Shown here piece after piece: positions 23,769-32,793 of a stretch of 64,000 bases of DNA (its first letter is position 1; every line of letters starts with the position of its first letter). A model generated the notes under the pieces. That model worked only from the letters and a program-made list of their open reading frames with translations. It had not been told where the DNA came from and ran no database searches. The stretch is from Bacilli bacterium. GTDB lineage: Bacteria; Bacillota_I; Bacilli_A; RF39; UBA660. The stretch is from NCBI GenBank assembly GCA_017934595.1, contig JAGBJG010000009.1:64839-128838 (forward strand), read 5' to 3'. The translations under genes were made by a program, and so were the position numbers.

Positions 23769-23814
23769 TATTTATTTTAACTTTACTGTGATATAATTAG
23801 GTCAGGTGATACTT

Positions 23815-24129
23815 ATGAAAGAATTAACCGAAAAAGTTGTTGAATTCACTCGTATAAGAGATTGGGATCAATTTCATTCTCCTGAGAATCTAGCTAAGAG
23901 TATTTCTATTGAAGCAGGTGAACTATTAGAATGTTTTCAATGGAATAATGAATATGATCTAGATGAAGTCAAGGAAGAACTAGCTGATGTTATAAATTAT
24001 TGTTTATTAATGGCTGATAAGCTAGGTGTAGATCCTAAACAAATTGTTTTAGATAAAATGGAGAAAACAGCTAAGAAATATCCTGTTGAAAAAGCTAAGG
24101 GTGTAAGTACGAAATATAATAAATTGTAG
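23815..24129 (+). CDS. MazG-like nucleotide pyrophosphohydrolase
   Basis: A 104-residue all-alpha NTP pyrophosphatase. It has the E-x-x-E ... E-x-x-D metal signature (SIEAGELLECFQW and EELADVINYCLLMADKLG), as in the dCTP pyrophosphatase/RS21-C6 branch of the MazG superfamily. It hydrolyses (d)NTPs to monophosphates. ATG 23815 is chosen because AGGTGAT lies upstream and TGATATAAT ends 17 bases before it. It is the first of four closely spaced genes with an HNH nuclease, a DUF2075 protein and a DpnII-like nuclease. Confidence 0.88.
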   Translation: MKELTEKVVEFTRIRDWDQFHSPENLAKSISIEAGELLECFQWNNEYDLDEVKEELADVINYCLLMADKLGVDPKQIVLDKMEKTAKKYPVEKAKGVSTKYNKL

Positions 24130-24137
24130 GAGTTAAT

Positions 24138-24926
24138 ATGAGAAATAAATGGGAACACGATGAAATGGTCTTAACTTTATATATATATCTGACACATAAT
24201 CCAGAAGAACTTCACAAATATTCATCTTTTATGATCGATTTTTGTAATAGATTGAATATCTATACAGGAAAGAATTTTACGACGTCATCAATTGAAATGA
24301 GGATTTCAAACTATAAATCAGTTGATCCAAACTATCATAAAATTGGATTAGCAAATGGTGGTAAAAGTGTTAAGGAGTTTTGGGATAAATATAATGATAG
24401 AATTGATTATATGTGTGAATTATATGAAAAATTCGTTAATTCAACATATAAACAAATTAATGAAGAATCTGTAAAAGAATTAGATGAAATAGAGAAAGAA
24501 TATACATTACTGAATATAGGTGATAAAGACGGGTATATTGAATCAGTAATAAATATAAGAAATGGCGCTATTCAAAAAGTTTTTAGAGATAATCTAATAA
24601 TTGAATTTAACCAAAAATGTGCTATTTGTGGAATTAATAATAGGGGTTTATTAATTAGTAGTCACATATTACCTTATAGTAAGTGTATTAACAAGGAAGA
24701 TATGATAAATCATAATAATGGTTTGTTATTATGTCCAAATCATGACGCTTTATTTGATAAGAAATTAATTTCATTTGACGATGACGGGAAAATAATAATT
24801 AATCCTCTGATTGATAAACAATTATATAAAGACTTAAATATTAGTGATAATATATATTTGAAAAAGTGTTACTTAAATGTTGAAAGATTGGCTTTTCTGA
24901 GATTACACAGAAGTATGATGAAATAG
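24138..24926 (+). CDS. HNH endonuclease
   Basis: A 262-residue protein. The C-terminal HNH domain has C161-x-x-C164, S-SHILP (H176), NHNNGLLLCPNHDALFD (N194, C199, H202) and a following beta segment. The N-terminal half is a helical specificity module with WEHDEMVLTLYIYL and the later LANGGKSVKEFWDKY, typical of HNH restriction-like proteins. It starts 8 bases after the MazG-like gene and ends 10 bases before the DUF2075 gene. Confidence 0.88.
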   Translation: MRNKWEHDEMVLTLYIYLTHNPEELHKYSSFMIDFCNRLNIYTGKNFTTSSIEMRISNYKSVDPNYHKIGLANGGKSVKEFWDKYNDRIDYMCELYEKFVNSTYKQINEESVKELDEIEKEYTLLNIGDKDGYIESVINIRNGAIQKVFRDNLIIEFNQKCAICGINNRGLLISSHILPYSKCINKEDMINHNNGLLLCPNHDALFDKKLISFDDDGKIIINPLIDKQLYKDLNISDNIYLKKCYLNVERLAFLRLHRSMMK

Positions 24927-24936
24927 GAGAAATATT

Positions 24937-26817
24937 ATGTTAGTATATGAAGGAATTAAATCAGGATTTATTAATGATGTAGATTTAGGAATAATTGCTG
25001 ATAAGATAAGAAATAAATATATAGAAAAGATCAAAAGAAGACCAAGTGCACCAGAATTTAACTCTTGGAAAAATTCTATGCAATATATGAGAGGTGTATT
25101 AAGTGATAATGAAATACCAAATAATACTGGCATAGCTATTGAATATAATATTCCTCCAACCGGATGTAGAATAGATTTTATGATGTCAGGATTTAGTAAG
25201 AATAAATCTAATGTTTTAATAATTGAATTAAAACAATGGGATAAGGCAACTCAAGTAGGTAAACTTGATGGTGTATATAAAGTTAGTACATATACTGGTG
25301 GAGGATTAAGAGATGTTAATCATCCATCATATCAAGCTATGACTTATGCTAATTTAATTAAAGATTATAATGAATCTGTCCAATTAAAAGATATTAATGT
25401 AGTACCATGTGCATACTTACATAATTATTATTTTGAAAATGATGATACTTTATTATCTGATAATTATAAAGAATATATAGATAAGGCACCGTTGTTTGGT
25501 CATAATGATGTAATTAAATTAAGAGACTTTATTAAAAGATATATTGAAAGTGGTGATGATGGAAGTATTCTTTATGAAATTGATCATGGAAGAATTAGAC
25601 CATCTAAAATGTTACAAGATTCTTTAACACAAATGTTACAAGGTAATAAAGAATTTTATATGATTGATAAACAAAAAATTATATATGAATATGCCTTAAG
25701 CAATGCTATTGATACTGTGTCCAGCAACAAAAAGAATGTAATGATTGTTAGAGGTGGACCAGGTACTGGTAAATCTGTACTTGCTATTAATCTACTAGTA
25801 GAATTTAATAACCGAAATATGACTTGTTTCTATGTAACCAAGAATGCAGCACCTAGAAGTGTGTTTTCAGCTAAATTAAGAGGTAATTTTACTCAAACAT
25901 ATATTAATCATTTATTCCAAGGTTCTGGAAATTTTGTCGATGAAGAGAGTAATAAATTAGATGTATTGGTAGTTGATGAAGCACATAGATTAAATGCAAA
26001 ATCTGGAATGTTTCAAAATAAAGGCGAAAATCAAATTAAAGAAATTATTAATGCTTCTAAATTTTCAATATTCTTTATAGATGAAAATCAAAAAGTAACT
26101 CTTAAAGATATTGGTAGTGAAGATTTAATCAAAAAATATGCTAATGAATTAAGTGCTGGTATATATACTTATGAACTAGATAGTCAATTTAGATGTAATG
26201 GTTCCGATGGATATATAGCATGGTTAAATAATTTATTAGAAATTAAAGAAACAGCTAACTTTGATATTGATGGATTTGATTATGACTTTAAAGTATTTGA
26301 TGATCCAAATGAAATGAGAAAAGCTATTGAAGAAAGAAATAAGATAAATAATAAATCTAGAATAGTAGCAGGTTATTGTTGGGATTGGATTAGTGAAGGT
26401 AATGCCAAGAATAACTCTAAAGTTCATGATATAACTATTCCTGAATATAACTTTGGAATGAGTTGGAACTTAGGTAATTCTCAAACTTGGGCTATAGATC
26501 CTGAATCAGTTAATGAAGCTGGATGTATTCATACATGTCAAGGATTAGAATTTGATTATGTTGGTGTTATTATCGGCGACGATATGAGATACGAAAATGG
26601 ACATATAGTAACTGATTATTCAAAAAGAGCTAAAACTGATCAGTCTTTAAAAGGAATAAATAAAATAGCTAAAGAGCAAGGACAAGAAGAAGCTAAAAAC
26701 ATAGCTGATTCTATTATTAAAAATACATATAGAACATTAATGACTAGAGGTATGAAAGGTTGTTATGTTTATTGTACAGATATAAAATTAAAAGAATATT
26801 TAAAAGAATATCTATAG
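24937..26817 (+). CDS. DUF2075 helicase-like protein with N-terminal nuclease-type domain
   Basis: A 626-residue protein. Residues about 60-110 carry a PD-(D/E)XK-like strand pair (RIDFMM, then VLIIELKQW). The ATPase part has Walker A RGGPGTGKS (about 272-280), Walker B VLVVDEAHRL, and the DUF2075/Schlafen-type motifs FIDENQKVT and TLMTRGMKGCYVY at the end. This architecture matches DUF2075 proteins found as single-gene nuclease-helicase phage defences or in restriction operons. Its codon use is closer to the core genes than that of the MORC operon. Confidence 0.85.
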   Translation: MLVYEGIKSGFINDVDLGIIADKIRNKYIEKIKRRPSAPEFNSWKNSMQYMRGVLSDNEIPNNTGIAIEYNIPPTGCRIDFMMSGFSKNKSNVLIIELKQWDKATQVGKLDGVYKVSTYTGGGLRDVNHPSYQAMTYANLIKDYNESVQLKDINVVPCAYLHNYYFENDDTLLSDNYKEYIDKAPLFGHNDVIKLRDFIKRYIESGDDGSILYEIDHGRIRPSKMLQDSLTQMLQGNKEFYMIDKQKIIYEYALSNAIDTVSSNKKNVMIVRGGPGTGKSVLAINLLVEFNNRNMTCFYVTKNAAPRSVFSAKLRGNFTQTYINHLFQGSGNFVDEESNKLDVLVVDEAHRLNAKSGMFQNKGENQIKEIINASKFSIFFIDENQKVTLKDIGSEDLIKKYANELSAGIYTYELDSQFRCNGSDGYIAWLNNLLEIKETANFDIDGFDYDFKVFDDPNEMRKAIEERNKINNKSRIVAGYCWDWISEGNAKNNSKVHDITIPEYNFGMSWNLGNSQTWAIDPESVNEAGCIHTCQGLEFDYVGVIIGDDMRYENGHIVTDYSKRAKTDQSLKGINKIAKEQGQEEAKNIADSIIKNTYRTLMTRGMKGCYVYCTDIKLKEYLKEYL

Positions 26818-26849
26818 TATTGATTTTATCAAAATAGTGAGGCGAAGAT

Positions 26850-27632
26850 ATGGAATATCAAATATTGAAAATAAAATTATTACAAATTATTGAGTGTATA
26901 GATCATTATACGTCGGAAGCTTCTATTAATGTTTTATTACGTAATGGAAAAGAAGCGCTTGAAAAAGACAATATATGTATAATCAAGTATACGATAGAAG
27001 AATTGACAAAATGGTATGATAAAAATATAGGCCATATATTATGCAATCAGTATGTTTACAATAAAAATGTACATAAAGATAATATAGAAATTTTGAAAGA
27101 ATTGACAAAATGTGTGGAAAATGATAATTTTGATGTTCCTAGAAGCATTAATAATTCTAATGCTCAAGTTGGTGAAAATAAATTGGATGACTTAATTAGA
27201 ATAATTACTAGATTTCATTTAATTGTAAGACAATTAAGATATAGATATAATTCTAGGGAAACAATAGATGTATCTGATGAATATGATGTGCAAGATTTAT
27301 TGCATTCATTACTTTATCTTTATTTCGATGATGTAAGAAAAGAAGAATGGACACCTTCTTATGCTGGCAAATGTTCAAGACAAGATTTTTTGTTGAAGAA
27401 TGAAGATATAGTTATAGAAGTGAAAAAAACTCGTCCTGGTCTTGCGGAAAAGGAGTTAAGTGATCAATTAATAGTTGATATTGCTCGATATAGATCACAT
27501 CCAAATTGTAAAACATTAGTATGTTTTGTTTATGACCCGGAAGAGAGAATTAAAAACCCTATTGGTATTGAAAATGACTTGACAGATGATAATAAAGAAC
27601 TTAAGGTTATTGTTAAAATAATTCAAAAATAA
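26850..27632 (+). CDS. DpnII/MboI-like PD-(D/E)XK restriction-fold protein
   Basis: A 260-residue protein. The C-terminal half has EYDVQDLLHSLL, FDDVRKEEW, then DFLLKNEDIVIEVKKTR with the E-V-K catalytic strand, then a conserved VCFVYDPEERIKNP. This fits the DpnII-MboI-like restriction endonuclease domain family (a strand of hydrophobic residues with D ... EVK). The N-terminal half is helical and may bind the target. It lies 32 bases after the DUF2075 gene with GTGAGGCG upstream, and no methylase is adjacent, so it may not be a classical type II enzyme. Confidence 0.8.
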   Translation: MEYQILKIKLLQIIECIDHYTSEASINVLLRNGKEALEKDNICIIKYTIEELTKWYDKNIGHILCNQYVYNKNVHKDNIEILKELTKCVENDNFDVPRSINNSNAQVGENKLDDLIRIITRFHLIVRQLRYRYNSRETIDVSDEYDVQDLLHSLLYLYFDDVRKEEWTPSYAGKCSRQDFLLKNEDIVIEVKKTRPGLAEKELSDQLIVDIARYRSHPNCKTLVCFVYDPEERIKNPIGIENDLTDDNKELKVIVKIIQK

Positions 27633-27680
27633 TAGATTTACGTAGAATAAAAATATAGATATTATATATACATTGCTTAT

Positions 27681-27716
27681 AAAGTATATTTCATCACGTG
27701 TGGAATATACTTTTTC
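27681..27716 (+). terminator. Intrinsic terminator before the Fic operon
   Basis: AAAGTATATT pairs with AATATACTTT around a loop, followed by T5. Confidence 0.65.
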
Positions 27717-27760
27717 TAAATAAATTGTATCATAATTTTAAAATGTAATATTATAATAAT

Positions 27761-27776
27761 ATACCGATAACGGTAT
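27761..27776. promoter_or_regulatory. Operator 1 of the Fic operon
   Basis: ATACCG-ATAA-CGGTAT, a perfect 6-bp dyad. Its reverse complement is identical to operator 2, and the centres of the two sites are 34 bp apart, about three helical turns. Confidence 0.75.
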
Positions 27777-27784
27777 AAAAAGTA

Positions 27785-27813
27785 TTGACATATTATACCG
27801 TTATCGGTATAAT
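27785..27813 (+). promoter_or_regulatory. Consensus promoter with embedded operator 2
   Basis: TTGACA (27785-27790), a 17-base spacer and TATAAT (27808-27813), matching the sigma-A consensus exactly. The spacer is filled by the dyad ATACCG-TTAT-CGGTAT (27795-27810), extendable to a 22-bp palindrome (27792-27813) that covers the -10. A bound repressor would block polymerase completely. Confidence 0.8.
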
Positions 27814-27832
27814 ATAATCAGAGGTGAAAATT

Positions 27833-28156
27833 ATGGAATTAATAGAAACAAAGGAAATTAAAGAATTAATTGATAATATTAAAGATTTAAATAGCTTGAT
27901 AGTTAATTTTGATAGAAAAAAGTTAGAAGATTTACTATTAAAATTACAAACAAAATATTTAGATAAATCTTTAGTGTTCGAATTATCTTATTTAACAAAT
28001 CCAAATGGTTCTTTTTCAAGTATTGACAATGTTTCAGATGATGATTTAAAAAACAAAATACCATATTATAAATCACTTTGCATAGATGATCTAATAAAGA
28101 AATGTGGATGCGAAAAATATAATGAAATAGTAGAAAAATATGAATTGGAGGTGTAA
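27833..28156 (+). CDS. Small acidic protein upstream of Fic, possible antitoxin partner
   Basis: A 107-residue helical acidic protein without a recognised family. ATG 27833 follows GAGGTGAAAATT; an in-frame GTG at 27824 is part of the ribosome binding site. It is the first gene after the operator-bearing promoter and ends 2 bases before the Fic gene, so the two are co-expressed. It may modulate Fic, be the repressor's partner, or be a substrate. It lacks an obvious helix-turn-helix, so the Fic protein's own N-terminus is the better repressor candidate. Confidence 0.6.
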   Translation: MELIETKEIKELIDNIKDLNSLIVNFDRKKLEDLLLKLQTKYLDKSLVFELSYLTNPNGSFSSIDNVSDDDLKNKIPYYKSLCIDDLIKKCGCEKYNEIVEKYELEV

Positions 28157-28158
28157 CT

Positions 28159-29085
28159 ATGGAATTTATGACTACAAATGATGCTGTAAAAAAGTGGGGT
28201 ATTAGTGAAAGAAGAATAAGACAATTATTACAGGATGGAAGAATTGAAGGTGCTGTTAAAGTAGGTAATAATTGGAATATTCCTATTAATGCTAATAAAC
28301 CAGCTGATAAAAGAAGTGTTAAACTAGATAATACTGAATTTAAATTTGATTTACCTGATAATTATTTTGATAAAGTTGATAAATTAAATAAAGAATTAAA
28401 TTCAAAAAGACCTATATCAAAAGAAACTTTAAAATCTTTAAAAGAATCTATAAATTTAGAGTGGACTTATAATAGTAACGGTATAGAAGGTAATACATTA
28501 ACTTTAAGAGAAACACAAGTTGTTTTAGAAGGTATTACAGTTGGTGGTAAATCATTAAAAGAACATTTGGAAGTAATTAATCATGAACAGGCAATATTAT
28601 TCTTAGATGATCTTATTAAAGATAAAGAACCAATCACAGAATGGAATATTAAAAACATTCATCAGTTAGTACTAAAAGAAATTGATGATGATAATGCTGG
28701 TAAATATAGAGACGAAAATGTAAAAATAAAAGGTGCTACACATATTCCACCAGATTATTTAATAGTTCCAGAATTAATGGAAAAATTAATTATTAATTAT
28801 GAAGATTGGAAAAAATATCATCCAATTATTAGAGCAGCATTATTACATGGAGAATTAGTTAAAATACATCCATTTGTTGATGGAAATGGAAGAACTTCAA
28901 GATTAGTTATGAATTTATCTTTAATGAATAGCGGATATCTTCCAGTAATTGTAAAAAAAGAAAAAAGATTAGAGTATTATAATGCTTTAGATAAAGCACA
29001 TATTACTGGAGATTATACAGATTTTGTTAAATTAGTTAATGAATTAGAAATTGAAATGTTAAATAAATATTTAGAATTGTTGTAG
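28159..29085 (+). CDS. Fic-family AMP-transferase with N-terminal helix-turn-helix
   Basis: A 308-residue protein. Residues 1-45 (TTNDAVKKWGISERRIRQLL, then GRIEGAVKVGNNWNIP) form an excisionase/MerR-like DNA-binding domain. The Fic motif HPFVDGNGRTSR is at 237-248, complete with catalytic His. An inhibitory-helix motif SNGIEG (S/T-x-x-x-E-G/N) at 106-111 lies N-terminal to the Fic core, as in self-inhibited class II Fic proteins. It probably transfers AMP (or another NMP) to a target protein and may also bind the two palindromes upstream. Confidence 0.9.
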   Translation: MEFMTTNDAVKKWGISERRIRQLLQDGRIEGAVKVGNNWNIPINANKPADKRSVKLDNTEFKFDLPDNYFDKVDKLNKELNSKRPISKETLKSLKESINLEWTYNSNGIEGNTLTLRETQVVLEGITVGGKSLKEHLEVINHEQAILFLDDLIKDKEPITEWNIKNIHQLVLKEIDDDNAGKYRDENVKIKGATHIPPDYLIVPELMEKLIINYEDWKKYHPIIRAALLHGELVKIHPFVDGNGRTSRLVMNLSLMNSGYLPVIVKKEKRLEYYNALDKAHITGDYTDFVKLVNELEIEMLNKYLELL

Positions 29086-29096
29086 GTGATAATAAG

Positions 29097-29996
29097 ATGA
29101 ATGTTAGTGATAGTTATGATTATAATGAATTAGAATTTAAGAGAGTAAACCGTATCATAATACCAGATATGAATAATAAGTTTATTAACGAGGAAATGTT
29201 GCTTAGTCCTTTATATAAAAAAATAGAAATCGATAAAACAATAGAACCTTATGAATTTTTCCCAATGAGTGATTTAAAAGTGGAGTGTTATTGTAAAGAA
29301 TGTAATAGGCGAAGAATTTATACGTTTGCTGATAGTCAGATTGCTTTAAATAGCGCTATGCGTGGAATGGAGCTTGCGAACTCAATTTCTTCTAGTGATA
29401 TATCTGAATTACAATATGAATTAGAGAAGATTGATTATTTTACTTTTTGTGCTCAAGCTGATTGCGGACATAACATGATTATTTTGTTTAAAGTTATAGA
29501 TAATGAAAATATAATGAAAGTAGGGCAATATCCTTCAATATATGATTTAAATGAGAAAATAAATAATAAGGAATTTATAAAAACTTTAGGAAAAGAGTAC
29601 GCTGATTATTATAAAAAAGCATGCGCATTATATAACTTTGATACCTATATTGGTGGATTGGCTTATCTAAGGCGAATATATGAAAAATTATTGTTAGATA
29701 CTTTTAATGATAATAAGAATAGTTTTGATATTACAGTTGATCAATTTAAGAAAATGCGAATGGATGAAAAGATACCATTTTTAAAAAAATACTTACCTAA
29801 TATAATGTTTGCTCAGGGTTTCAATGAAATATATACGAAAATTAGTGACGGGATTCATAATTTATCAGAAGATGAGTGTTACAAAATGTTTTTAACATTA
29901 AAAATGGGAATCGAAGAAATCTTGATAGAAAAAATGGAAAACGTAGAAAGAAATAAAAGAATTTGCGATTTATCAAAAGAGTTACAAAAAACATAA
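29097..29996 (+). CDS. Zinc-ribbon plus helical (HEPN/DUF4145-like) protein
   Basis: A 299-residue protein. Residues 62-145 contain C64-x-C66-x2-C69 and a second FCAQADCGH cluster, a likely metal-binding ribbon. The C-terminal helical half begins YIGGLAYLRRIYEKLLLD and includes KISDGIHNLSEDEC, a pattern like DUF4145/HEPN-fold proteins found in defence islands. It starts 11 bases after the Fic gene with AGGTGAT and may be the operon's third gene, but its codon use (CGA, GCG) differs from the Fic gene. Function unknown. Confidence 0.6.
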   Translation: MNVSDSYDYNELEFKRVNRIIIPDMNNKFINEEMLLSPLYKKIEIDKTIEPYEFFPMSDLKVECYCKECNRRRIYTFADSQIALNSAMRGMELANSISSSDISELQYELEKIDYFTFCAQADCGHNMIILFKVIDNENIMKVGQYPSIYDLNEKINNKEFIKTLGKEYADYYKKACALYNFDTYIGGLAYLRRIYEKLLLDTFNDNKNSFDITVDQFKKMRMDEKIPFLKKYLPNIMFAQGFNEIYTKISDGIHNLSEDECYKMFLTLKMGIEEILIEKMENVERNKRICDLSKELQKT

Positions 29997-30033
29997 AAAG
30001 CACATATAGATATCTATTCTATATATGCTTTTT
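29996..30033. terminator. Bidirectional terminator between convergent genes
   Basis: AAAAGC ... ATATAGA/TCTATAT ... GCTTTT hairpin with A- and T-runs on its two sides, between the + strand gene at 29097 and the - strand gene at 30104. Confidence 0.7.
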
Positions 30034-30103
30034 TATTAACTAAATAATATCGCATAAAATCTAACTAAATTTTGTTGCATATGCTTGAACATTTTTTATA
30101 TTT

Positions 30104-31354
30104 TTATTTTAAGTTTTGGAAACTAATTTTAATTGGTAACAGTGCAGACATAATTGAATAAGTTTCATATTTTTTTAGATTCTTGAGAATCCTTTGTGCA
30201 TCATCCTCGGTATTAAGGTTTTTAGTATCAATTAAATAATATTTTTCGTTTAAGTCTTTATCTATCATCGAAAATGATAAATATTCTACATTCGAATATT
30301 TAATTCTTTTTTCATAAGGTAATTTCATTGTATCTATATTTCTGTATCCATACATCTCGTTTACTAAAAATACTGCTATAATTTTATCACTTTCGATAGA
30401 TTTCGCAATTAGCGATATTTCTTTATATATACTTGCTTTATTATTAAACATAAATGGTTTTATCGTGAATGTTCCGTTGTCATAAAAAATATAAAATGTC
30501 GGTATTATGTGTTTTTCTTGTAAAACGTATAATAATACGTGCTGTATTATGAATGATAGAAAATAATCATTTATGTTATCTCCGTGGAGTAGTATATTTC
30601 CATTTACTTTAGTGCGAGGCATATTTATTACTTTACCATTTGAATCGGCAAAAAAGATTGTTGCATATGAGCCATATTCAATTTTTTTGGTTTTAGTATT
30701 AAATACGCCATCTAATTGTAGTTCTAATTTTTTTGCTATAATATTGTTTAATTTTTCAGTGGTTTTTTCTTTTAACAGTGTACAATTTTTACAGTTTATT
30801 TCTAATGTTTCGCAGAATTCTTCTAAAAATTTATACATATTTTCTAAAATTTCATTTATATTTTCAAATATATTTATATTTTCTTTTTTATCATAGAAGT
30901 TATAATTAATAGTAAAGTATATTTCTGGAGCTGTGGTATTAATTTCCGTAAATTTCTTTGTTATTTCTTTTTCTATTTCTTTTTGTGGTGTATCATCAAT
31001 AGCGATATCAAAATCATAATGTATTGCAGAAGATGTTTTATCAATATAATATATATCTACATCAATGACTTTATTCAATTGGATAGGCCTTTTATGTGTG
31101 ACATCTACTCTAGTATTGTTACACCATTTCATAATTTTATTCATGAGATATTTTTCTTTTAATGTCTGATATTTATTTAAAAGATTTTTGTCATTATCAA
31201 TTTCTGCTTGTAGTGTAAATGTAATGCTTCTAAATTCATTGAAGAAGTTGTCAAAAAATGATACATTATCAAAAAAATTATTTTCTATAGATATTGAATC
31301 TAAATTTTTAAGTGCGCTATAGAATTTTTGGTAAACATTACACATACATTTCAT
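30104..31354 (-). CDS. Large uncharacterised protein in the defence island
   Basis: A 416-residue protein, not recognised. ATG 31354 (MKCMCNVYQKF) is chosen because AGGAGTG lies just upstream, with TGGTATAAT 18 bases before the ATG; longer in-frame extensions cross that promoter. The N-terminal half is helical with a C-x-x-C (NCKNCTLL near 212-216). The C-terminal half is beta-rich (VNGNILLHGD, TFYIFYDNGTFTIKPF). It lacks membrane helices and NTP-binding motifs. It forms a single-gene unit transcribed opposite to its left neighbours. Confidence 0.55.
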   Translation of the reverse strand: MKCMCNVYQKFYSALKNLDSISIENNFFDNVSFFDNFFNEFRSITFTLQAEIDNDKNLLNKYQTLKEKYLMNKIMKWCNNTRVDVTHKRPIQLNKVIDVDIYYIDKTSSAIHYDFDIAIDDTPQKEIEKEITKKFTEINTTAPEIYFTINYNFYDKKENINIFENINEILENMYKFLEEFCETLEINCKNCTLLKEKTTEKLNNIIAKKLELQLDGVFNTKTKKIEYGSYATIFFADSNGKVINMPRTKVNGNILLHGDNINDYFLSFIIQHVLLYVLQEKHIIPTFYIFYDNGTFTIKPFMFNNKASIYKEISLIAKSIESDKIIAVFLVNEMYGYRNIDTMKLPYEKRIKYSNVEYLSFSMIDKDLNEKYYLIDTKNLNTEDDAQRILKNLKKYETYSIMSALLPIKISFQNLK

Positions 31355-31372
31355 AAAATCACTCCTATTTAC

Positions 31373-31381
31373 ATTATACCA
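31373..31381 (-). promoter_or_regulatory. Extended -10 of the 30104-31354 gene
   Basis: On the minus strand TGGTATAAT lies 18 bases upstream of the ATG at 31354, and it fixes the start by ruling out the longer frame. Confidence 0.65.
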
Positions 31382-31401
31382 TACTATATTTATTAAGTAA
31401 T

Positions 31402-31434
31402 AAAAACCACATTTACTTGGTAAATGTGGTTTTA
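31402..31434 (-). terminator. Terminator of the darT-NADAR operon
   Basis: AAACCACATTTAC pairs with GTAAATGTGGTTT; on the minus strand it is followed by T-rich sequence. The stem includes the last codons and stop of the antitoxin gene. Confidence 0.75.
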
Positions 31435-32000
31435 TAATACCTTTTAAATTCATCTCTAGATTCAATAATATCTGTCATGTTATTTTTATATAATGTATTC
31501 CATATGGCAGCTGCTCTAGCTTGTGTATTAGACATTTTATTAGGATTAAATTCTATATCAGTGAATATGCTATATTTAGTTAATTCTTCATGATATTCTT
31601 TATGGCAATATAATCCTAACATATAAATATAATCATAATACATACTATAAGGATCTTTTTCAAATGCGGTGTTACCATATTTGAATCCTATAATGTTATG
31701 ATTATCATCAAATATTTTTGATGATTGATATATATTTTCTACAGTTTCCTCTTTTCCACTAAGAAACTTGACTGTTAAGTTAAGTGCGCTTAATTTAACA
31801 CCTAATTCAATATTAGATTTAGTAGATACTTCTAATACTTTATTTATATCATATTTTTTTGATATAGATAGATGTAATGAATCTCTTCTTTTACATTTTT
31901 GTTGTTTAGACATACCTTTAACCCATACAAATTCAATGTCTTTTTTTATAAATGGTTTTTCAGGTATATTAGTTGATATATAAATAGGTCTAATTGCCAT
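31413..32000 (-). CDS. NADAR-family antitoxin of DarT
   Basis: A 195-residue protein of the type found directly after DarT1 toxins (DUF6977/NADAR fold), which removes ADP-ribose from modified nucleobases. Visible signatures are AIRPIYIST at the N-terminus, LHLSISKKY, IGFKYGNTAFEKDPYSMYYD and SNTQARAAAIWNTLY. ATG 32000 is chosen because GAGGTGG, formed by the last toxin codons, lies just upstream; a longer frame overlaps the toxin and would read its codons out of frame. Its start lies one base beyond the toxin stop, so expression is coupled to the toxin. Confidence 0.8.
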   Translation of the reverse strand: MAIRPIYISTNIPEKPFIKKDIEFVWVKGMSKQQKCKRRDSLHLSISKKYDINKVLEVSTKSNIELGVKLSALNLTVKFLSGKEETVENIYQSSKIFDDNHNIIGFKYGNTAFEKDPYSMYYDYIYMLGLYCHKEYHEELTKYSIFTDIEFNPNKMSNTQARAAAIWNTLYKNNMTDIIESRDEFKRYYKTTFTK

Positions 32001-32001
32001 A

Positions 32002-32793
32002 TTACCACCTCGCATAATCGCATCTACCCATGTAGATGCTATAATTAGGATGATAATTATATTCTTTTTCAAGACATAATCTTTTTATATTATCATCGTT
32101 ATATTTAGTATGTACATCTTCTATGAAACGTTTAGGTATTTCTGTATCTACTAATACTTCTGCTTGTGGATCTGTTGTATAACTTATATTTAAATTAGGT
32201 TCTCTATATTCTTCATCAAACATATTTAAGAATGCTTCATTTGTAGTAAGTGTTCTTCTGTTTATATTGTTAAATATACCACATGCTGCATTAGTATGAT
32301 AGAATTGTATATCTAATTTGGATAAAAGTAATCTAGGATTTATATCATATATTACAAAATTATATCCTTCATTTACTTCTAAACTATATCTCATTTTATA
32401 GTTAGGATATGAAATAGATGCTGATATTTTATTTAATTCACCATCTAATCTATTAGGATCAGTAATAACATTAGTTATACCTAATACATTACAATAATCT
32501 CTTGATAATATTCCATGTTCTAATATACTTGCAGTATTTTCTATAGGTGAGAAATGATATATATGATTAATATTTCTATTTATAATAATATCATATCTAT
32601 CTGATTTTAATTTAGCATAAGAAGAATATCTATTGAATTCTTCTGACTGCATATCTATAGTCTTATAACTACCATCTTCTTGTTTAAAATGAATTATATA
32701 TTTTTGTCTATTTGGATTGTAGAAATTTCTTTCTATAATACCATGACAATATCCTTCGGTATTTATAAGATGTAATCCTTGTAATTCATCCAT
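32002..32793 (-). CDS. darT: DarT-family DNA ADP-ribosyltransferase toxin
   Basis: A 263-residue protein. DarT signatures are HIYHFSPIENTASILEHGIL (NAD-binding H80 region) and the catalytic Glu E212 in DPQAEVLVDTEIP, with the ARTT-like loop just before it. DarT enzymes add ADP-ribose to bases in DNA and act in phage defence. The N-terminal about 70 residues before the HIYHF segment are an extension of unknown role. The promoter TTGCTA-17-TATAAT lies upstream and the ribosome binding site is AAGGGGGC. The antitoxin follows directly. Confidence 0.87.
   Translation of the reverse strand: MDELQGLHLINTEGYCHGIIERNFYNPNRQKYIIHFKQEDGSYKTIDMQSEEFNRYSSYAKLKSDRYDIIINRNINHIYHFSPIENTASILEHGILSRDYCNVLGITNVITDPNRLDGELNKISASISYPNYKMRYSLEVNEGYNFVIYDINPRLLLSKLDIQFYHTNAACGIFNNINRRTLTTNEAFLNMFDEEYREPNLNISYTTDPQAEVLVDTEIPKRFIEDVHTKYNDDNIKRLCLEKEYNYHPNYSIYMGRCDYARW

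Follow-up and report, generated by a model that had tools for sequence, protein, structure and literature searches.

The window analyzed here, a stretch of 64,000 nucleotides from a Bacilli bacterium, carries an operon for a class II Fic AMP-transferase that is likely to be self-regulated, with operators bound by the N-terminal helix-turn-helix (HTH) of the Fic protein repressing the operon's own promoter. Autorepression of the gene by the HTH-Fic enzyme is very probable, because the predicted sites are kept wherever this HTH is present, in many bacteria. A sequence-only reading of the region had suggested that the Fic protein acts as an autorepressor through its N-terminal HTH, and the comparison of loci strongly supports this proposal; the predicted operator accompanied 39 of 39 genes of the closer HTH-Fic subfamily and none of the 27 rows for Fic proteins that lack the HTH.

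The promoter TTGACA-17-TATAAT described in that reading was found at 27785-27813 and was the sole 12/12 match in a promoter scan of 27600-30200. The -35 hexamer, TTGACA (27785-27790, plus strand), recurred exactly or as a near-match in all 31 aligned promoters, the -10 hexamer, TATAAT (27808-27813, plus strand), was assigned from the promoter match and the ortholog alignment, and the 17-bp spacer occupied 27791-27807. The candidate promoter operator, O1 (ATACCG-TTAT-CGGTAT, 27795-27810, no strand), overlapped both the spacer and the -10 hexamer. The earlier description of the spacer as the palindrome was nearly right, in that 13 of the 17 spacer bases belong to O1, but O1 also runs into the -10 hexamer and takes up its first three bases. 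With its flanking bases O1 reads TATACCG-TTAT-CGGTATA. The candidate upstream operator, O2 (ATACCG-ATAA-CGGTAT, 27761-27776, no strand), is a mirror copy of O1 and confirmed the reverse-complement site that had been placed 34 bp upstream, the distance being measured from start to start; jointly, O1 and O2 form a 31-nt inverted repeat with a 4-nt gap. Exact copies of ATACCG-N4-CGGTAT in the 1.0-Mb genome were limited to O1, O2 and one more palindrome (C15:56751), which was set aside as an operator since it falls within a coding sequence. With the arms confined to O1, O2 and one coding site, the regulator of the site would have no other obvious target in the genome.

The 17-bp spacer was kept in 30 of the 31 aligned promoters, and the hexamers mostly matched the consensus at 10-12 of 12 bases. 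The operator started 5 bp past the -35 hexamer in 22 promoters and 3 bp past it in the other 9, and 18 different sequences were found at the N4 centre. Because the spacer is fixed while the register and the N4 centre vary, the operator and the promoter are separable elements. A sigma-A promoter has no need of CCG and CGG in its spacer, so the conservation of these triplets requires a separate reader. A second palindrome 32-34 bp upstream was present in the window and in many family loci (L007-L011, L013, L017, L019, L022, L024, L036, L037 and a G069 fragment), some of the copies being degenerate, while in the group with TGCCG arms the two palindromes were 54-55 bp apart. Between these two arrangements the spacing shifts by 21 bp, equal to two helical turns.

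The HTH-Fic gene (28159-29085, plus strand) encodes a protein of 308 amino acids with an N-terminal winged HTH at residues 1-48, the sequence SNGIEG at 106-111 and HPFVDGNGRTSR at 237-248. The protein matched the Pfam Fic family (PF02661) with E=6e-24 and 85 bits, against a cut-off of 24. Fic/Doc AMP-transferases are recognized by a Fic domain with the motif HxFx(D/E)GNGRxxR, which is represented here by HPFVDGNGRTSR, and the catalytic residues were invariant in an alignment of 21 orthologs with 64 to 99% identity. Class II Fic proteins are self-inhibited and carry an inhibitory (S/T)xxxE(G/N) motif on the N-terminal side of the Fic core, within one polypeptide. SNGIEG occupies this position, and Ser106, Glu110 and Gly111 were invariant in the same 21 orthologs, in line with the self-inhibitory motif noted in the earlier reading. 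Among solved structures searched by sequence, the nearest to the Fic part were those of animal FICD (residues 63-295, E 1e-38), while the HTH was covered by none. The likeness to FICD/HYPE takes in the inhibitory segment, although FICD is a membrane-anchored protein of the endoplasmic reticulum without an HTH. A search of viral contigs with the Fic query found no relatives. Three C-terminal Fic fragments (G185, G203 and G076) were considered as cases of gene decay, but all stop at contig ends and are consequently assembly breaks.

The proposed operator-binding domain is encoded at 28159-28302 (plus strand), with helices at residues 6-13 and 17-25 and a wing at 33-42. Its match to HTH_17 of Pfam at residues 3-40 was weak (20 bits, the cut-off being 27), and the TIGR01764 score was likewise below the curated cut-off (15.6 against 28.8). 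In an AlphaFold model built from the 21 orthologs, residues 1-48 were predicted to form a helix-helix-strand-strand arrangement (pLDDT 71-88), an order that matches the excisionase-MerR HTH fold; outside the HTH the model was poor and the mean pLDDT overall was 58. Each of the 52 distinct HTH-Fic sequences readable with the regular expression had arginine at the position of Arg21 in the recognition helix, four residues after a conserved acidic residue, whereas valine or isoleucine was found there in all six proteins in which the same HTH is fused to a different domain (see below). The difference is a lead on a base contact made by the recognition helix but not proof, because those six fusions form one clade.

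A search of 193 family genomes gave 20 full-length Fic orthologs. The DNA upstream of these genes contained TTGACA-N5-TACCG-N4-CGGTATAAT, in most cases immediately before fic and with the small first gene of the window absent. A locus table was assembled from a search across the class in which only the HTH served as query, together with further loci, and comprised 59 rows with HTH and Fic, 14 with HTH but no Fic and 27 with Fic but no HTH, two of the latter being duplicates of the same genes. When an operator was called from at least 8 of 10 matching arm bases within 150 bp upstream, 35 of the 59 HTH-Fic rows and none of the 27 HTH-less Fic rows had one (Fisher 1.4e-8, an optimistic P since the 59 are related). 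The closer HTH-Fic subfamily, defined by a Fic score of at least 290 bits, consisted of 39 sampled full-length genes. All 39 had the operator, in 31 within 150 bp of fic and in seven farther upstream, past an inserted gene, ORF or intron. The insertion between operator and fic was the small gene at L006 (the window), L009, L036 and L037, a 364-aa gene at L017, ORF remnants at L019 and a group II intron at L013. At L021 an IS110-like element had inserted and the operator, cut by the IS, was found on a contig end of that genome. Absence of the palindromes upstream of orthologs, which the earlier reading had named as refuting its proposal, was thus checked, and the sites proved to be retained throughout the sampled subfamily. 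At L044/L180 (G210:C21), a group II intron with its reverse transcriptase separates the twin-operator promoter and ribosome-binding site from fic.

In the reverse direction, the 193 genomes were scanned for TTGACA-N5-TACCG-N4-CGGTATAAT with at most two mismatches. There were 21 matches, one per genome, and 17 of them were HTH-Fic promoters, including the intron-split and IS-split ones; every match with at most one mismatch was an HTH-Fic locus. A control scan of the same genomes with the pattern read backwards gave one match. Five of the matches lay away from fic. One of these, in G069, was at a contig edge beside an IS and was counted as an HTH-Fic promoter, while the remaining four had two mismatches, with broken arms or a missing -35, and look like chance.

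In the loci compared, the operator went strictly with the HTH; neither the Fic domain nor the small gene predicted its presence. The operator was not found at the HTH-less Fic genes of Cetobacterium, Lysinibacillus and Priestia plasmids, whose Fic domains are 54-59% identical, nor at the two other Fic genes of the window's own genome (L133 and L134), both of which lack the HTH. Conversely, in six genomes (L058-L063) the same HTH was fused to an SDR-like protein of about 461 residues, and in all six the promoter had a degenerate operator copy, ATTCTTAATTCGGTAT or a near variant, in the same register but with the left half decayed. Because the operator tracks the HTH across loci, the N-terminal HTH almost certainly reads the predicted operators and would thereby occlude its own promoter.

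Among the most distant HTH-Fic genes (Fic score below 140 bits) the sites were weak or absent. In a more distant group (L108, L112, L114 and L115) a palindrome of the TTGCCGATA-CGGCAA type was seen about 90 bp upstream, and the recognition helix was SERSVRNY, compared to SERRIRQL; the joint change of helix and palindrome possibly represents a natural change of specificity.

A second HTH-Fic subfamily, with more distant Fic domains, had the same half-site arranged differently, as (A/G)TTCCG direct repeats at spacings of 22-23 and 20 bp that extend up to the promoter. These loci include Leptotrichia shahii, Mycoplasmopsis cynos and Streptococcus phage Javan422, and the subfamily also occurs in Bacilli. 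At the newly sampled loci L156, L159, L161 and L167 the repeat spacings were equal within 1-2 bp. The TTCCG repeat spacings were not found at L164 and L165, which lack the HTH, and the repeats were not found at L168, which has a diverged HTH. In phage Javan422 (L138) the HTH-Fic gene (1498-2391) is flanked by genes for the terminase large subunit and the portal protein, and multiple TTCCG repeats lie in its upstream DNA.

The small first gene (27833-28156, plus strand; best start ATG 27833) encodes a 107-aa protein and lies in the gap between operator and fic. It had been described as belonging to no known family, and none was found in Pfam, PADLOC or NCBIfam; the one match, to a PHROG of unknown function, was weak. 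The gene was present in 4 of 22 family loci, with relatives at L036 and L037 (94%) and L009 (39%), each between operator and fic. No match was found in the plasmids and phages searched, and 60 related genomes gave a single further match, a weak one. An AlphaFold model of the protein was mostly helical (pLDDT 77), and a PDB fold search with the model gave no match at E<=0.001. On inspection its sequence lacked [S/T]xxxE[G/N], the motif of the small antitoxin that defines class I pairs of the VbhT/VbhA type. The suggestion that the 107-aa protein is a general partner or antitoxin was not supported, as the gene is one insertion among several, occurs at few of the loci and lacks this motif, and the inhibitory motif within Fic itself further disfavors an antitoxin role. 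From its distribution, the gene is best described as an optional passenger and not a general antitoxin.

In the proposed mechanism, a dimer of Fic would bind TACCG-N4-CGGTA through the N-terminal winged HTH. With 9 bp, close to one helical turn, between them, the half-sites would be presented on the same face of the DNA. As the operator sits inside a consensus sigma-A promoter, bound Fic would block RNA polymerase and repress its own operon, and the second operator, 34 bp upstream here and about 55 bp in another group, would take a second dimer that strengthens the repression. As cargo of the operon, the small gene ahead of fic and the 299-aa gene after it would come under the same repression. 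More speculatively, an oligomeric or catalytic change of the self-inhibited Fic domain may lift the repression, so that sensing and switching on would reside in a single protein.

The palindromes by themselves do not separate repression from activation. HTH-Fic might bind the site and activate the promoter in the manner of MerR, by reshaping a poor spacer, as would suit an HTH of the MerR/excisionase type and an operator that, like MerR sites, lies between -35 and -10. We consider activation quite improbable, since a spacer that is nearly always 17 bp between near-consensus hexamers leaves a MerR-type twist nothing to correct. A palindrome can also be a structural element, a terminator, hairpin RNA or recombination site, and O2 on the minus strand did score as terminator-like. 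This reading has almost no likelihood, given that the arms are kept while the centres vary and that the position relative to the promoter is fixed in dozens of unrelated contexts. An RNA role for O1 was rejected because O1 stops inside the -10 hexamer, upstream of any transcript start.

Another possibility is that a different DNA-binding protein, encoded elsewhere, reads the palindromes and that the HTH of Fic serves otherwise, for example in targeting the enzyme to DNA. There is a parallel in Coxiella CbFic2, whose HTH shows little sequence preference in DNA binding and modulates enzyme activity (PMC10628234). The existence of such a reader appears unlikely, however, because the operator is private to the fic promoter within the genome, the promoter-operator pattern marks HTH-Fic genes across 193 genomes, HTH-less Fic genes are missing the operator and the SDR-like protein with the same HTH retains a version of it. 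That the 107-aa protein instead regulates the operon or is an antitoxin that Fic requires, the two proteins being a toxin-antitoxin pair, would agree with a small-fic gene order kept in four loci at identities down to 39%, and with the small anti-SoFic protein encoded adjacent to SoFic of E. coli (PMC12249575). Such a pair is very improbable because most loci have the operator and Fic without the 107-aa gene, the small protein shows neither an inhibitory motif nor a match to a DNA-binding family nor a PDB fold at the above threshold, and Fic already contains the inhibitory motif.

Repression by Fic itself has a precedent in CccR of Yersinia pseudotuberculosis, an autorepressing Fic protein that binds inverted repeats in front of its own gene as a dimer (PMC9755527). 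As in the window protein, Fic domain and HTH are fused in one chain, and the conserved inverted repeats in the promoters of the window's subfamily are candidate binding sites of the corresponding kind. The HTH of CccR is C-terminal whereas that of the window protein is N-terminal (residues 1-48) and excisionase/MerR-like. The CccR half-sites are arranged as AGATAATCAT-N26-ATGATAATCT, compared to TACCG-N4-CGGTA inside the promoter here, and CccR is an effector secreted by a type VI system (T6SS), while no link to secretion was seen for the window protein. CbFic2, also a class II Fic with an HTH, is a monomeric AMPylase that becomes a deAMPylating dimer on binding DNA (PMC10628234), which indicates that DNA binding can alter the oligomeric state and activity of a Fic protein; its winged HTH is C-terminal, no specific site is known for it and its N-terminus is a DUF4172 domain. 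SoFic, likewise of class II, acts in phage defence and has a small protein, AS1, encoded beside it (PMC12249575). The PADLOC SoFic profile matched the window Fic at E 9e-34, although the NCBIfam SoFic equivalog (NF046030) scored it at 35 bits against a cut-off of 550; AS1 has 47 residues and is encoded downstream, while the small gene of the window encodes 107 residues, is upstream and is optional. Precedents for both operator layouts are provided by BldC, a small MerR-like HTH protein that binds direct repeats head to tail (PMC5859096), and CvkR, a MerR-type protein that represses at a palindrome in target promoters and does not bind its own core promoter (PMC9938897). Both have a small winged HTH of the window's kind and no Fic domain, BldC being a stand-alone HTH. 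Class-wide Fic autoregulation through an N-terminal HTH, and the operator that would mediate it, appear to be undescribed in the open-access literature searched.

It is conceivable, if rather doubtful, that the HTH-Fic proteins of Bacillota, mycoplasmas, Fusobacteriota and phage are a widespread class of switches made of a single protein. The N-terminal HTH would then tie the state of Fic, whether dimer or monomer and whether AMPylating or deAMPylating, to how far its own operator is occupied, and contact with a target or ligand would derepress the enzyme and its changeable accessory genes. The triggers and targets of most bacterial Fic proteins are not known. Conservation of the half-site, which reaches from rumen Bacilli to Leptotrichia and a Streptococcus phage, offers a specific and cheap handle, in that whatever frees HTH-Fic from the operator would give a readout of the state of the enzyme. 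The operator signature also locates HTH-Fic operons in raw sequence and sets them apart from many other Fic proteins with which they are now grouped.

The 299-aa protein of no known family encoded behind fic (29097-29996, plus strand) starts 11 bp past the fic stop and its gene is a probable member of the operon, as variable cargo. About 9 of the 22 family loci had a same-strand gene 7-34 bp past fic, and these genes varied, being PIN-like, HNH-like, P-loop NTPase, PHP-like or receiver-like as judged by eye. Since both the small and the post-fic genes vary, fic appears often to be alone and sometimes to share its operator with passengers. The neighbourhood of the operon in the window includes restriction and toxin-antitoxin type genes, a tie to phage defence that is by association only. 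Upstream, on the same strand (23806-27632), are MazG-like, HNH, Schlafen group 3 helicase and DpnII/MboI-type restriction endonuclease genes. On the minus strand, a DarT-like ADP-ribosyltransferase adjoins a NADAR antitoxin (31413-32793, a DarT1-type pair), beside a 453-aa ORF (30104-31465) with no Pfam or PADLOC family. Elsewhere in the family, L036 and L043 had a common two-gene cargo at +944 to +2636 from the fic start, consisting of a receiver-like protein (by eye) of 228/229 residues and a 333-aa protein of unknown kind.
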